A stretch of DNA of 64,000 nt, taken from positions 1 through 64,000 of the forward strand of contig JAOUOP010000001.1 in the NCBI GenBank assembly GCA_029880325.1, read 5' to 3'. The stretch comes from Myxococcales bacterium (GTDB lineage: Bacteria > Myxococcota_A > Polyangia > Polyangiales > JAFGIB01). Under the pieces are notes generated by a model. It was not told the origin of the DNA. It saw nothing but the letters and a program-made list of their open reading frames with translations, and did no database searches. The translations under genes and the position numbers were made by a program. Shown here piece by piece: positions 12,599 through 18,302 of this stretch (positions are counted from its first letter, which is position 1; each line of letters begins with the position of its first letter).

Positions 12599-13600
12599 TC
12601 AGCCCCCGGCCACGACGTTTTGAGGCGCCCCGGCCAGAAAAGCGCGCACGTTGTCCACCGCCACCTGCAATAGCCGCCCGCGGGCGGCGCGCGTGGCCCA
12701 GCCGATGTGGGGCGTGACCAGGCAGCGCGGCGAGGTCAGCAGCGGGTGGTCGCGCGGCGGAGGCTCCTGCTCGAGCACATCCAGGGCCGCCCCGGCGAGC
12801 TGCCCGGCCAGGAGCGCCCGCGCCAGCGCCGCCGAGTCCACGAGCCCCCCGCGGGCGGTGTTGATCAGCAGCGCCGTGGGCTTCATGGAAGCCAGACGCT
12901 CGGCGTTCACCAGCCCCGCGGTCGCAGCCGTCAGCGGGCAGTGCAGGCTCAGCACATCGCTTTCGGCAAAGAGCTGCTCGAGCGAGACCAGCGCGATGGG
13001 CAGCCCGCCGGGCGCGCTCAGCTTGCTCGAGTGGGCCAGAAGCTCCATGCCGAAGGCCTGGCCCAGGCGCGCCACCGCCTGGCCGATGCGGCCAAGTCCG
13101 ACCAGCCCCAGGCGCAGGCCGGCCAGTTCCAGCATCGGCCGCTCGTAGAGCGAAAATTCACCCGACGCCGTCCAGCGGCCGGCGCTGGCGGCTTCGCCGT
13201 GCAGGGCCGCGTGATTGGTCAGCTCCAGCAGCAGCGCGAAGGTATGCTGGGCCACCGATGCCGTGCTGTAGGCCGGCACGTTGCACACGACGATGCCCCC
13301 CTCGGCCGCCGCCGCCGCATCGACCACGTCATGGCCGGTCGCCAGCACGCCCACATAGCGCAGCGCCGACAGCGCAGACAGCAGCTCGCCCTTCAGCGGC
13401 GTCTTGTTGGTCAGCACGACGGAGGCGCCGGCGGCCCGCTCGAGCACCTGCTCGGGCGCGCTGCGGTCGTGGATGGTGGTGTCGCCGAGCGCCGCAAGCC
13501 CCTGCCAGCTCAGGTCCCCCGGATTGAGGGTGTGGGCGTCGAGCACCACGATGCGCGGCCGCCCCGCCGTAGCCTCGGAACGGCCCTGGCCCCCCATCAT
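12599..13600 (-). CDS. D-2-hydroxyacid dehydrogenase, NAD-binding
   Basis: The 333-residue protein belongs to the D-isomer-specific 2-hydroxyacid dehydrogenase family. It shows the Rossmann motif GLVGLGRIGQAVA, the catalytic Arg in LINTARGGLVD, the catalytic Glu region (LDVLEQEPPP) and the catalytic His in TPHIGWATRAAR. The closest well-known types are glycerate/hydroxypyruvate reductases, suggested by GHDVVDAAAA and PAYSTASVAQ, but the substrate is not certain. The ATG at 13597 or 13600 is used; the frame is open further upstream without family-like sequence. It is transcribed away from the permuted binding-protein gene. Confidence 0.88.
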   Translation of the reverse strand: MMGGQGRSEATAGRPRIVVLDAHTLNPGDLSWQGLAALGDTTIHDRSAPEQVLERAAGASVVLTNKTPLKGELLSALSALRYVGVLATGHDVVDAAAAAEGGIVVCNVPAYSTASVAQHTFALLLELTNHAALHGEAASAGRWTASGEFSLYERPMLELAGLRLGLVGLGRIGQAVARLGQAFGMELLAHSSKLSAPGGLPIALVSLEQLFAESDVLSLHCPLTAATAGLVNAERLASMKPTALLINTARGGLVDSAALARALLAGQLAGAALDVLEQEPPPRDHPLLTSPRCLVTPHIGWATRAARGRLLQVAVDNVRAFLAGAPQNVVAGG

Positions 13601-13781
13601 GCGGAGCCCCCCCGGCACGGCCACGCTCGAGGGCGCCGGGCGCGCGTGCCGAAGAAGCCCAATTGGGCCGGCCAAAACGTGAAATACGCTCGCAGCATCG
13701 CGCCATGGTCGCGCACACCTCGACCGACACGCAACGGCCCCAATCGTGACTTGCTTCGGCTTTTTGGCTACCGTTAGCGCC

Positions 13782-14636
13782 ATGTTCGCGATTCGGATGA
13801 TCCCTGGCGCAGCACCCTCGCCGCAGCGCATTGCGGCTTTCGTCGCCCTGATGGCAACCGCCGCCGTCACCGTCGCCTGTGGCGGCCCCGCCGAGATGGT
13901 GGTCAACACCTTCCCGACGACCCCGCGCGCGGTCAGCGAGATCCACCGCGGTCAGGCCGACGCCGTCGTCGGCGACTACCCGGTGATGGCCCACACGGCC
14001 CGCGAGTCCATGGGCCAACTGGAAGTCGTGGGCAGCCAATTCGACACCGCCCAATTCGGCATCGGCATCCGCAAGAACTCCATCGACCTCAAGCCCGCCA
14101 TGGTCGCCGCCCTGCGCAAGATCGTCGAAGACCAGAGCTACATCCAGGCCCTGCGCAACTGGGCCGTGCACATCGGCGCCATCGATCCACCGGCAGCACC
14201 CGCCGGCGTTCCCGCCAAGGAAGCGATTCCGGAGCTGCAAGACGGCAAGCTGCAGGTGGGCATCGAGCTCGACTTCGCGCCCATGGAATTCCAGGACGAG
14301 CTGCACAAGCCGGCCGGTGCCGACGTGGAGCTGGCCACCGCCCTGGCCAAGGCCCTGGAGGTCGAGGTCGAGTTCGTGAACGTGAAGTTCGACACCCTGC
14401 TCGACCAGCTGACGACCGACAAGGTCGACGTCGTGATCTCGGCCATGACCATCACCCCCGAGCGCTCCGCGGAAGTCGACTTCATCCCCTACCTGGAGAT
14501 GGGCTCCGGCATCCTGGTCGCCAAGGGCAACCCCCACGCCATCAAAACCCCGCAGGACCTCTGCGGCCGCACCGTGGCGCTGCAGGAGGGCACCTCCCAG
14601 ATCGCAGTGCTCAAGAAGGTGCGCTGCTGGGAGTAA
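13782..14636 (+). CDS. Lipoprotein with circularly permuted solute-binding (SBP_bac_3-like) domain
   Basis: The 284-residue product starts with a lipoprotein signal (VTVACGG, Cys33). Residues 38-140 then look like the second half of a periplasmic amino-acid-binding protein: EMVVNTFPTTPRAV, then RGQADAVVGDYPV, then a C-terminal helical part (ALRKIVEDQSYIQALRNW). Only after this comes the usual N-terminal half: LQVGIELDFAPMEF at about 156, GADVELATALAKAL, VDVVISAMTITPER, and CGRTVALQEGTSQIAVLKKV, ending at RCWE. The two halves together make about one full domain in swapped order, cut in the lobe-2 loop. No ABC permease or ATPase lies nearby. It may be a real permutation or the remnant of a tandem-domain gene with both outer halves lost. 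Confidence 0.75.
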   Translation: MFAIRMIPGAAPSPQRIAAFVALMATAAVTVACGGPAEMVVNTFPTTPRAVSEIHRGQADAVVGDYPVMAHTARESMGQLEVVGSQFDTAQFGIGIRKNSIDLKPAMVAALRKIVEDQSYIQALRNWAVHIGAIDPPAAPAGVPAKEAIPELQDGKLQVGIELDFAPMEFQDELHKPAGADVELATALAKALEVEVEFVNVKFDTLLDQLTTDKVDVVISAMTITPERSAEVDFIPYLEMGSGILVAKGNPHAIKTPQDLCGRTVALQEGTSQIAVLKKVRCWE

Positions 14637-14705: not shown

Positions 14706-17700
14706 ATGGGGCGCCCACCGATGACTAGCCTGCTCGAACGCTGGTTTCAGATCCGCCGCGACGAGCGCTCGCTGGCGTTTGCGTTCTTCGCGTTTTTCGT
14801 CGGCATCGGCATGTTCTACACCGTCGGCTCGACGGTGGGCGACACGCTCTTTCTGTCGAGCCTCCCGAGCAGCCGCGTGCCCCGGATGTTGCCCTGGGTG
14901 TACGTGGGCATCGCCTTCACCAACGTGGCGTCGACCTTCGCCTTCGACGCCCTGCAGGCGCGCATTTCGCGCACCGCCGCCATCATCGGCACCCAACTGG
15001 TGATGTCCGCCACGGTGCTGCTGGCCCGCAAGCTGGTGGAGGGCGGGGGGGAGGCGGTCTACTTCGGCCTGGTGATCTGGCTGGAAGCCTGCGCCCTGCT
15101 GTCGATCACGCTCTTCTTCTCATTCGCGGGTGACTACTTCACGCCGCGCGTGGCGCGCCGCCTCTACGGCTTCATCGCCGGTGGCATGGCCGTCGGCACG
15201 GTGGTCTCCGGGTACGCCATTCGACTCGTGGCCGGACTCGTCGATGTCGCCGACCTGCTCTACGTGGGTGCCGGGCTGTTGCTCGCAAACGCAGCCACCG
15301 CCGCCTGGATCTTCCGCATCGGCACCGTCACCAGCGCAGCGAGCGAGGCCGACGGCAAAGAGCGGGTCGCGCTCAAGGCCATCTTCGCGCGCCCCTACGT
15401 GCGCCTGCTGTCGCTGATGATCCCGCTGGGCATCCTGGTCACGGTCACCGTCGACTACCAGATGAAGTGGGCGGCGAGCACCAAGAGCGAGCAGGAGCTG
15501 GCGCAGTTTTTCGGCAGCTTCTACGGCACCGTGGGGGCTGCCCAGATCCTCTTTCAGTTCCTCGTGGTGCCGCGTCTGCTGCAGCGCCTGGGCATCATCC
15601 CCTGCCTGAGCATCCTGCCCATCGGCATCGCCGCCGGCAGCTTCCTGCTCTACGGCGGTGCCGCCGTCGACTACTTCGGGCTGTCGCTTCTGGGCATGTC
15701 GGCGGCGGTGAACTTCCTGCGCCTGACCCTGTCGGAAACCCTGGACCTGCCGTCGCGGGAGCTGCTCTTTTTGCCGCTGCCACCACGCCTGCGCATGCGC
15801 GTACAGCCACTGCTCGGCGGCGCGCTGGCACCGGCGGCCCAGGGGCTGGCGGGCCTGATCATGCTGGGCGCCCTGAGCCTGGGCTTCGGCGCCGCGGCGC
15901 TGTCGCTGATCGCCGCCAGCGCCGCCCTCCTGCTGGTCGTGGTGCTCCTGAACCTGCGACCGCTCTACCGACGCACCCTGGCCGAGACCCTGCGCCGCCA
16001 TCAGCTCGACTCCACCGACCTCGACCACGTACTGGGGCGCCCCGAGGCGGCCAATGTGCTCAGCGAGCTGCTGCACAGCCCCGACGCTCTGGTAGTCAAA
16101 GCCACCCTGAACCTGCTGCGGGGCCGCAGCGTCGCCGATCTCTTGCCGCGGGTGGCCGAGCTGGTGGCCGCCGAAAACGCCGAGGTGTCGGTGGCGGCGC
16201 TGCAGCTGCTCTCCGAGCAAAAGGAAGAGGACTTCCTGAAAGACATCGAGGCCGCCTTCACGGCCGACGACCGCCAGGTGCGCCGGGCCGCGGTGCTGGC
16301 CTACGCCCAGTCGCGGGGCGACGGGGCCGCCGAACGCCTACGCGAGCTGCTGGCCGACGACGACCGAGCGCTGAGGGATGCGGCGGTGGTGGCCCTCGGA
16401 AGGCACTGCGGCGAACGCGGGCGTTCCCTGGCGCGGCCGCGCCTCGAAGTGCGACTCGAAACCGACGACCTGGGCGAACACCTGGCAGCCATCGGTCTGA
16501 TCGGGGCAATCGGCCGCCGCGAGCTGAGCGACCTGCTGGCCGACTACCTGCAGGAGGGCCATCCGCGCGAACGCCTGGCGGCCTGCGAGGCCTGCGCGTC
16601 CATCGGCGATCCGCAGCTGCTTTCGCCCCTGCTCGATGCCCTGGCGGTACCCGAGCTGCGCGCGGCGGCCATGCGCGCCCTGGGCGCCATGCCACCCGAA
16701 GCCGTGGGCGCCATCGCCGGGGTGCTCGAGGATCCCCTGCATCCGCGCGGCCAGCGCGTGGCCCTGGCCCAGGTGCTCGCGCGCATCGGGGGCTCGGCCG
16801 CCGTCTCGGCCCTCTACCGGCGCCTGTCGCCCCAGGAAGAGCTCTCGGTACGCCTGGCCGCGGCCGAGGGGCTCAGGGAGCTGCGCATGGGCCCCAACTG
16901 GCCGCGGGTCCTGTTGGAGGGCTACGAGGGGCGCATCGAGGAGGTCTGTGCGGCCATCGAGCTACTCGACCGGGCGCGGCGCCAGGTGGTCAGCGGCGAC
17001 GACTTCGTGGGCCGCATCTACGCCGAACACGCGCGCCTGCACGTCGAACTCTTGCTGTCGATGCTGGCCCTGCGCCACGACCCGCGCAACCTGGCCCGCA
17101 TCCGCTACAACCTGCTGGTGGTGCCCGACGCCGAACGCGGGCGCGCCCTGGAGCTATTCGAAGTGGTGCTGTCGCGGCGGCTGGCCCCGCGCGTGGTGCC
17201 GACACTGCAGCGCTGGCTCGAAGGCGGCGAAGAGCGCGAGAGCCGGCTCGATCTGGGCGTGCGCTCGCAGCTGATGGACGGCGAACCTTGGCTGAGGGTC
17301 TCCACCATCCGCCACCTCAACGCCGGCGCCACCACCCCCACCGTAGGCGCCGAGAAGATGAGCGCCCGCGACAAGACGCTCTACTCCAGCCTCGACGTGG
17401 TGGCCTTCCTCAAGCACGTGCCGCTCTTCGAGGAGCTGCCGGCCTATTACCTGCTGGAACAGGCCGAGCACGCCGAGTGGCTGCGCCTGAAGCACGGCGA
17501 GATTCTCTTCGAGCAGGACGACCGCGGCGACGCCCTCTACATCATCTGCCAGGGCGCCATCGACGTGCGCGTGCTCGACCGCACCCTGGCGTGCTTGACT
17601 GCGGGTGAATGCCTCGGGGAGCTGGCCCTGCTCGACGGTCAGCCGCGTTCAGCCTCGGCCGTGGTCGCCGACGACTGCCTGCTCCTGCGCGTCTCCTCCC

Positions 17701-18302
17701 AGCGCTTTCGCTCGCTGATCGGCGCCCAGCCCGCCGCCGGCCGCGCCATGCTGCGCACCCTCGACAAGCGCATCCGCGAGACCCAGGCGGGGCTGCGCCG
17801 TGGCGATCGCGGCGCCGAGCCGACCCTGCTCAGGCACTCCCAGCTGATGCGCGCCCACACCCAGGGCCTCAAGCAGCTGGTCTCCACGATTTCCTTCCTG
17901 CAGCAGGTGGAACTCTTCCGCGACCTGACCACCGCGGCCCTGGCCAATCTGGCGGCCATCACCAAGGAAATCGACATCTACGAGGGCGACGTGATCTTCA
18001 ACGAGGGCGAAGCCGGCGAGTCGCTCTACCTGGTCTGCTCCGGCCGCATCGGCGTCTCGCTCGAGGGGCGGCAGCTGGCCGTGCTCGAACGCAATGCCTG
18101 CCTCGGCGAGATGGCGTTAATCAGCGGCCGCCCGCGCTCGGCCAGCGCCCACGCCCTGGAAGCCGGGCACCTGCTCGAGATCGGCTCCGAGGACTTCCAC
18201 CGGCTGCTCGCGACCGAGAGCGAGATCACGATGGCGCTCTTGACCACCCTGGCCCGGCGGCTGCGCAACGTCTCCCACGGCCAGCGGGAGGATGCGGCCT
18301 GA
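14706..18302 (+). CDS. ATP/ADP-translocase/MFS-like transporter fused to HEAT repeats and two cNMP-binding domains
   Basis: The 1198-residue protein has three parts. Residues 1-425 hold about twelve membrane segments resembling the ATP/ADP translocase (Npt)/MFS family. Residues about 430-800 are Ala/Leu-rich helical pairs typical of HEAT repeats (RRAAVLAYAQSRGDGAAERL and similar). Two cyclic-nucleotide-binding domains follow (about 897-1010 and 1065-1180). Both keep the phosphate-binding cassette: CLGELALLDGQPRSASA and CLGEMALISGRPRSASA, with the key Glu and Arg. The simplest reading is a membrane transporter or sensor gated by cAMP/cGMP-like nucleotides. The ATG at 14706 or 14721 could be the start. 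The substrate is unknown and no cyclase is near. Confidence 0.85.
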   Translation: MGRPPMTSLLERWFQIRRDERSLAFAFFAFFVGIGMFYTVGSTVGDTLFLSSLPSSRVPRMLPWVYVGIAFTNVASTFAFDALQARISRTAAIIGTQLVMSATVLLARKLVEGGGEAVYFGLVIWLEACALLSITLFFSFAGDYFTPRVARRLYGFIAGGMAVGTVVSGYAIRLVAGLVDVADLLYVGAGLLLANAATAAWIFRIGTVTSAASEADGKERVALKAIFARPYVRLLSLMIPLGILVTVTVDYQMKWAASTKSEQELAQFFGSFYGTVGAAQILFQFLVVPRLLQRLGIIPCLSILPIGIAAGSFLLYGGAAVDYFGLSLLGMSAAVNFLRLTLSETLDLPSRELLFLPLPPRLRMRVQPLLGGALAPAAQGLAGLIMLGALSLGFGAAALSLIAASAALLLVVVLLNLRPLYRRTLAETLRRHQLDSTDLDHVLGRPEAANVLSELLHSPDALVVKATLNLLRGRSVADLLPRVAELVAAENAEVSVAALQLLSEQKEEDFLKDIEAAFTADDRQVRRAAVLAYAQSRGDGAAERLRELLADDDRALRDAAVVALGRHCGERGRSLARPRLEVRLETDDLGEHLAAIGLIGAIGRRELSDLLADYLQEGHPRERLAACEACASIGDPQLLSPLLDALAVPELRAAAMRALGAMPPEAVGAIAGVLEDPLHPRGQRVALAQVLARIGGSAAVSALYRRLSPQEELSVRLAAAEGLRELRMGPNWPRVLLEGYEGRIEEVCAAIELLDRARRQVVSGDDFVGRIYAEHARLHVELLLSMLALRHDPRNLARIRYNLLVVPDAERGRALELFEVVLSRRLAPRVVPTLQRWLEGGEERESRLDLGVRSQLMDGEPWLRVSTIRHLNAGATTPTVGAEKMSARDKTLYSSLDVVAFLKHVPLFEELPAYYLLEQAEHAEWLRLKHGEILFEQDDRGDALYIICQGAIDVRVLDRTLACLTAGECLGELALLDGQPRSASAVVADDCLLLRVSSQRFRSLIGAQPAAGRAMLRTLDKRIRETQAGLRRGDRGAEPTLLRHSQLMRAHTQGLKQLVSTISFLQQVELFRDLTTAALANLAAITKEIDIYEGDVIFNEGEAGESLYLVCSGRIGVSLEGRQLAVLERNACLGEMALISGRPRSASAHALEAGHLLEIGSEDFHRLLATESEITMALLTTLARRLRNVSHGQREDAA

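Follow-up and report, generated by a model that had tools for sequence, protein, structure and literature searches.

The permuted gene and its neighbours

The window considered here, that is the whole stretch of 64,000 nucleotides analysed, comes from a Myxococcales bacterium and carries on its forward strand a gene (13782-14636) for a protein of 284 amino acids, which the reading frame, phmmer matches and orthologues together characterise as a circularly permuted lipoprotein of the SBP_bac_3 type. The protein opens with a lipoprotein signal peptide (13782-13880, +) ending in a lipobox at Cys33, an assignment that had already been made, with the right coordinates, in an earlier note drawn from the sequence alone; the cysteine is invariant in all five orthologous proteins. 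There follows the original C-terminal half of the domain, comprising the end of lobe 2 and the return to lobe 1 (residues 36-132; 13887-14177, +), then a new Pro/Ala-rich linker joining the old C-terminus to the old N-terminus (residues 133-154; 14178-14243, +) and, finally, the original N-terminal half with lobe 1, the hinge and the first part of lobe 2 (residues 155-284; 14244-14633, +). The linker, which was delimited by alignment and by the AlphaFold2 (AF2) model, varies between orthologues and is predicted to be strand-free with just three-residue helix fragments.

Downstream on the same strand lies a gene (14706-18302) for a protein of 1198 amino acids with an NTT-like membrane domain followed by HEAT repeats and two cyclic-nucleotide-binding domains (hereafter NTT-HEAT-cNBD), recognised by Pfam, by a fold match to AtNTT1 and by its adjacency at all five loci. 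The nearest neighbour on the left is a D-2-hydroxyacid dehydrogenase gene (12599-13909, -), the adjacency of which is not kept at the orthologous loci.

One domain with exchanged halves

The earlier note had proposed that the second half of the domain precedes the first, and comparison with PDB chains using phmmer bears this out: residues 10-135 of AncQR (4zv1) match residues 155-280 of the query, while residues 142-230 of the same chain match residues 40-127, the order being reversed. At the cut about six residues are absent relative to AncQR, all inside one lobe-2 loop, as had been supposed. Likewise, in a canonical actinobacterial protein of 233 amino acids (L126) the back piece corresponds to residues 1-140 and the front piece to 143-232, so that the two add up to about one domain; in a second canonical protein (L071, 241 amino acids) the front piece aligns to residues 149-240. 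The alignment scores of the halves (131-152 and 226-256) lie far above those of 200 shuffles per half, which gave means near 29, standard deviations below 5 and maxima of 44-52, and identity to the canonical relatives is about 36-37% for the C-terminal half versus 40-46% for the N-terminal half.

The Pfam profile PF00497 matches residues 157-254 (profile positions 1-97) with 105.6 bits, the curated cut-off being 26.4, and thus picks up the N-terminal half only (98 residues of the domain); reversal and completeness emerge from the phmmer matches and the alignment to L126. The profile and both domain parts of SBP_bac_3 are therefore present and the canonical N-to-C order of the halves is absent. 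As in a natural permutant, both pieces match one unpermuted protein in reversed order and with nearly single coverage, and judged by its sequence the open reading frame is one complete SBP_bac_3 domain with exchanged halves. The partial report by Pfam implies that such permuted proteins may be mistaken for truncated ones.

Orthologues and the origin of the arrangement

The permuted protein has a single match across the whole 8.16 Mb source genome. Full-length orthologues occur in a genome of the same genus (G001, 64% identity) and in two of the same family (G004 and G005, 57%), and a further one (L070) in the metagenome-assembled genome (MAG) STA_58 (G141) from another family of the class, on a contig that starts within or at the beginning of the signal peptide. 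These four, at 53-63% identity, come from two families and separate assemblies; three other genomes of the source family (G002, G003 and G006) yielded no match. In the alignment of all five proteins (A2) each runs from signal to C-terminal half to linker to N-terminal half and stops one or two residues past an invariant cysteine, and none of the four orthologues has a tandem SBP-SBP arrangement, the outcome that the earlier note had named as refuting its reading. Both halves evolve under purifying selection, dN/dS for the pairs that include the gene of the window being 0.36-0.55 in each, rough values given the large synonymous distances.

The contig scan for relatives returned no match with a single protein as query and returned matches with the alignment. 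Several candidates for the same permutation were rejected: those of L071-L079 that were translated show the canonical order or tandem SBPs, and three tblastn matches on plasmids that crossed the junction were traced to an SBP of canonical order carrying a spurious extension (Sinorhizobium), to two adjoining SBP genes (Roseomonas) and, going by its annotation, to a fusion of SBP and permease (Enterococcus).

The alternative raised in the earlier note, a tandem SP-SBP-SBP gene that recently lost its outer halves and left a decaying or non-functional remnant, would leave exactly the observed order of pieces; tandem SBD1-SBD2 proteins do exist (GlnPQ; 6h30 is among the Foldseek matches), and adjoining SBP genes, as in Roseomonas, yield the same junction-spanning match. 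Against it stand four orthologues of 53-63% identity with the same order and end points, all open and none tandem, the purifying selection on both halves and a source genome without a second SBP_bac_3 gene. Since order and end points are common to non-tandem orthologues, the gene is best read as a circular permutant and not as the decayed remnant of a tandem arrangement, and we regard a recent deletion as refuted and its residual probability as very small. What survives of the idea is its ancient form. A tandem duplication that later shed its outer halves is the probable source of the permutation, which makes the two options of the note partly one history, and ancient duplication with deletion belongs to the best explanation. 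Similarly, an assembly artefact or chimera of a metagenome-derived contig draws some support from the MAGs among the related genomes, but the recurrence of identical joints in separately assembled genomes at 37-47% protein-level divergence rules out a chimera and makes this explanation negligible.

Ancestry of the two halves

A maximum-likelihood tree of 74 domains, for which the permuted sequences were restored to canonical order by script, places the five permuted proteins in one clade (100/100) with canonical actinobacterial SBPs as its sister (100/99). When the halves are treed separately, L071 and L124-L127 are nearest to both by tree distance, support being weak at that depth and modest in the tree of the C-terminal half. 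Because the permuted clade is single and each half is nearest the same relatives, the sequences point to one protein that was permuted once, which, with the orthologues and the selection on both halves, upholds the reading of a natural permutation.

It might be argued instead that halves of two different, complementing SBPs were fused, or that the protein completes its fold only as a segment-swapped dimer. The lower similarity of the C-terminal half to canonical relatives and the modest support of its tree lend this some weight; however, both halves, taken singly, have the same actinobacterial SBPs as closest relatives, AF2 models the monomer with confidence and the length of the linker suffices for a monomer, such that we consider it improbable.

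The permuted proteins also have an invariant pair of cysteines, Cys261 (14562-14564, +) and Cys282 (14625-14627, +), and all five end one or two residues beyond the second. The pattern, DLC...C, recurs in the canonical relatives L071, L072, L124, L125 and L126, and the cut sits immediately behind the pair. From the conservation of the pattern the two cysteines probably form a disulfide, which would staple the new C-terminus.

Predicted fold and binding site

The AF2 model, the check that the earlier note had proposed, gives a confident predicted fold with a mean pLDDT of 88, most of the mature domain scoring over 90, and a pTM of 0.77, from which alone the packing of the lobes was judged; the underlying alignment had 13 rows (the five permuted proteins and eight canonical half-fragments). 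In Foldseek the N-terminal half fits SBP_bac_3 structures within about 1 Å (82 columns at 0.7 Å for 5t0w). No full-length sequential match to an SBP_bac_3 structure was returned; the matches are part-wise, as would be expected of a sequential aligner that meets a permutant. Among the longer sequential matches is OpuAC (2b4l), weak at 256 columns and a TM-score of 0.41.

Three residues of the putative binding site are invariant in all five permuted proteins. Asp65 (13974-13976, +), which is aligned in the phmmer match, corresponds to the lobe-2 aspartate that contacts the α-amino group of the ligand in HisJ and GlnBP; Arg228 (14463-14465, +), likewise aligned, corresponds to Arg77 of HisJ and Arg75 of GlnBP, which hold the ligand carboxylate; and Thr271, also aligned, occupies the amino-acid clamp position (Thr/Ser) of the family. 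Thr223 is replaced by Ala in L070.

A second permutation, cut at the hinge

A phylum-wide scan with alignment A2 as query gave matches spanning the junction of C-terminal and N-terminal half in G295, G296, G298 and G299, all of one genus, and in G544. Three of the loci, L098 (1327-2202), L101 (1327-2202) and L088 (1495-2343, -), encode lipoproteins of another permuted form, which start at the beginning of lobe 2 (ITSVSDL..., ITTLEQL...) and end with the first hinge strand. Three Actinomycetota genomes (L128-L130) also encode the hinge-cut form. These proteins are placed elsewhere in the tree than the protein of the window and its orthologues, and a common origin of the two kinds of permutant is disfavoured (AU p = 0.037, a long branch being involved). 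All the permutants read, of both cuts, are lipoproteins.

At L143 and L144 the hinge-cut gene is followed by BPD_transp_1 and ABC_tran genes, an adjacency which makes it plausible that a permuted SBP_bac_3 protein is able to serve in transport. L143 itself has a canonical SBP (912-1931), then the hinge-cut SBP (2055-2936), then permease and ATPase, a layout that may have captured permutation by duplication midway, or may belong to an ABC importer with two receptors. Two further candidates from the search for hinge-cut forms were discarded: L112 is a canonical SBP-permease, and L113 (G342, Myxococcota) is a glutamate-receptor-like channel, that is a prokaryotic channel whose SBP_bac_3 domain is split by a pore carrying a TTVGYGD filter.

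The NTT-HEAT-cNBD neighbour and the missing permease

At all five loci the NTT-HEAT-cNBD gene lies 39-69 bp downstream of the permuted gene on the same strand. The neighbours are orthologous (46-67% identity), and their adjacency is kept on the right while the left flanks vary between genera. In the window, Pfam recognises the HEAT repeats and the two cNMP-binding domains of this protein. For the N-terminal membrane domain no sequence match was found in the PDB, and the assignment derives from the AF2 model (pLDDT 70, moderate; pTM 0.75), the best fold matches of which are the ATP/ADP translocators AtNTT1 (TM-score 0.69) and Chlamydia NTT1. Among the 57 relatives searched and G141, every orthologue above 45% identity came from a genome that also has the permuted SBP. 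More distant relatives of the neighbour in the order had no SBP in the flanks examined, which counts against a functional link between the two genes.

The source genome, G004, G005 and G141 each encode exactly one PF00497 protein, the permuted one, and G001 one more, a fusion of SBP and chorismate mutase, so that the permuted protein is the only transport-type SBP_bac_3 protein in all five. This fusion (L142, 741-1925, -), with SBP_bac_3 and CM_2 domains, is likely an enzyme of the cyclohexadienyl-dehydratase type. A search for TIGR01726, the family of His/Glu/Gln/Arg ABC permeases, which was the one permease family covered, found none in the five genomes, drafts of 93-98% completeness, and detected its positive controls. 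That an amino-acid permease gene was missed in the drafts is possible, but five times over it is unlikely. The absence of TIGR01726 together with the single PF00497 protein indicates that the permuted protein left, or never had, the usual ABC permease partner.

Since the adjacency is conserved and the permease missing, our best guess is a functional link between the SBP and the NTT-type protein. Alternatively, the protein could be an ordinary binding protein of an ABC importer whose permease is encoded elsewhere in the genome, and the NTT gene beside it would be there by coincidence. Unlinked SBPs are common and the hinge-cut permutants do adjoin ABC permease and ATPase genes; the lack of the TIGR01726 domain in all five genomes and the constancy of the NTT adjacency despite differing left flanks argue in the other direction and leave this alternative on the unlikely side, with some weight all the same.

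Slightly less weight falls to a role as a periplasmic sensor or moonlighting enzyme outside transport, an unlikely reading which would account for the lack of a permease partner. Cyclohexadienyl dehydratase evolved from this binding-protein fold, AncCDT structures come up among the close matches both by fold and by sequence, and G001 encodes the chorismate mutase fusion; the invariance of the amino-acid clamp residues Asp65, Arg228 and Thr271 speaks against it.

A proposed mechanism

The sequence of events and functions that we propose has four steps. In the first, an actinobacterial-type SBP gene would have been tandemly duplicated, its outer halves deleted, with the cut in the loop behind the lobe-2 helix bearing the second Cys of the pair, and a lipoprotein signal fused to the new N-terminus. 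In the second, the protein would still close around an amino-acid-like ligand in the manner of other type II binding proteins, Asp65 being contributed by the new front half and Arg228 and Thr271 by the back half; these two steps we consider likely. The third follows from the anatomy: the lipid anchor would sit on lobe 2 over a very short spacer of about 4-9 residues, and lobe 1, its old termini joined by the linker of about 20 residues, would be free to swing. Taken jointly, the three steps describe a natural permutant of a type II polar-amino-acid-binding protein that is folded and binds a ligand, and we hold this to be likely. In the fourth and weakest step, the ligand-bound form would signal to, or feed, the NTT-HEAT-cNBD protein with no ABC permease, which is rather doubtful.

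The most far-reaching version of this scheme would make the permuted lipoprotein the dedicated binding protein of a HEAT/cNMP-gated NTT-type (MFS-fold) secondary transporter, serving transport or sensing unrelated to ABC or TRAP systems, with lobe-2 anchoring by permutation having been selected; as a whole this is unlikely, and we offer it as a speculation. To fusions of the NTT-HEAT-cNBD type, a widespread class of unknown function (PMC5381601), the pairing with an SBP offers a candidate ligand handle.

Comparison with known binding proteins and transporters

Canonical SBP_bac_3 proteins (TmArgBP, GlnBP, HisJ, AncQR; L071, L124-L127) have the domain and the clamp positions in common with the permuted protein, and the actinobacterial ones also the Cys pair, whereas the permuted protein differs in the opposite order of its halves, the cut in a lobe-2 loop, the anchor on lobe 2 and the lack of an ABC permease. 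Many canonical SBPs are likewise lipoproteins. The hinge-cut permutants (L098, L101, L088, L128-L130) resemble the source protein in Pfam family, permutation and lipoprotein nature; however, their cut falls where lobe 2 begins and not within that lobe, and they have a separate place in the tree. For the neighbour, both the NTT-HEAT-cNBD architecture (PMC5381601) and the fold of AtNTT1 and Chlamydia NTT1 have precedents, and in its accessible part the description of these fusions does not mention an accompanying binding protein.

Permutation of binding proteins as such is known from other groups. TpMglB-2 (Tp0684) and its relatives, 'Cluster Bc', are natural circular permutants of an SBP and lipoproteins, and easier tethering was suggested by the authors as a possible reason for the permutation (PMC4990184). 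The permutants read here, all lipoproteins, agree with that suggestion, though lipoproteins are frequent among canonical SBPs as well. In contrast to the permuted protein, TpMglB-2 has the type I, cluster B sugar-binding fold, is cut in the N-lobe and lies beside ABC transporter genes; the permuted protein is not of cluster B, the phmmer matches listed being type II chains of the SBP_bac_3 type. OpuAC and ProX, type II glycine-betaine-binding proteins, are placed in one circular-permutation family (PMC2395249) and thus have in common with the permuted protein a permutation among type II binding proteins, but they belong to PF04069 and bind another ligand, and the compared proteins are less than 24% identical; PF04069 gave no match to the permuted protein at E-values up to 10. 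In the literature searched, which included few subscription journals, no natural permutation of an amino-acid-binding SBP_bac_3 protein was found. What would be new relative to the type I sugar binder and to OpuAC/ProX is the existence of two cuts within SBP_bac_3. As the carriers of both are all lipoproteins, the idea that permutation is an answer to the problem of tethering becomes testable, and nature would seem to have re-wired a textbook binding protein so as to tether it by a different lobe.
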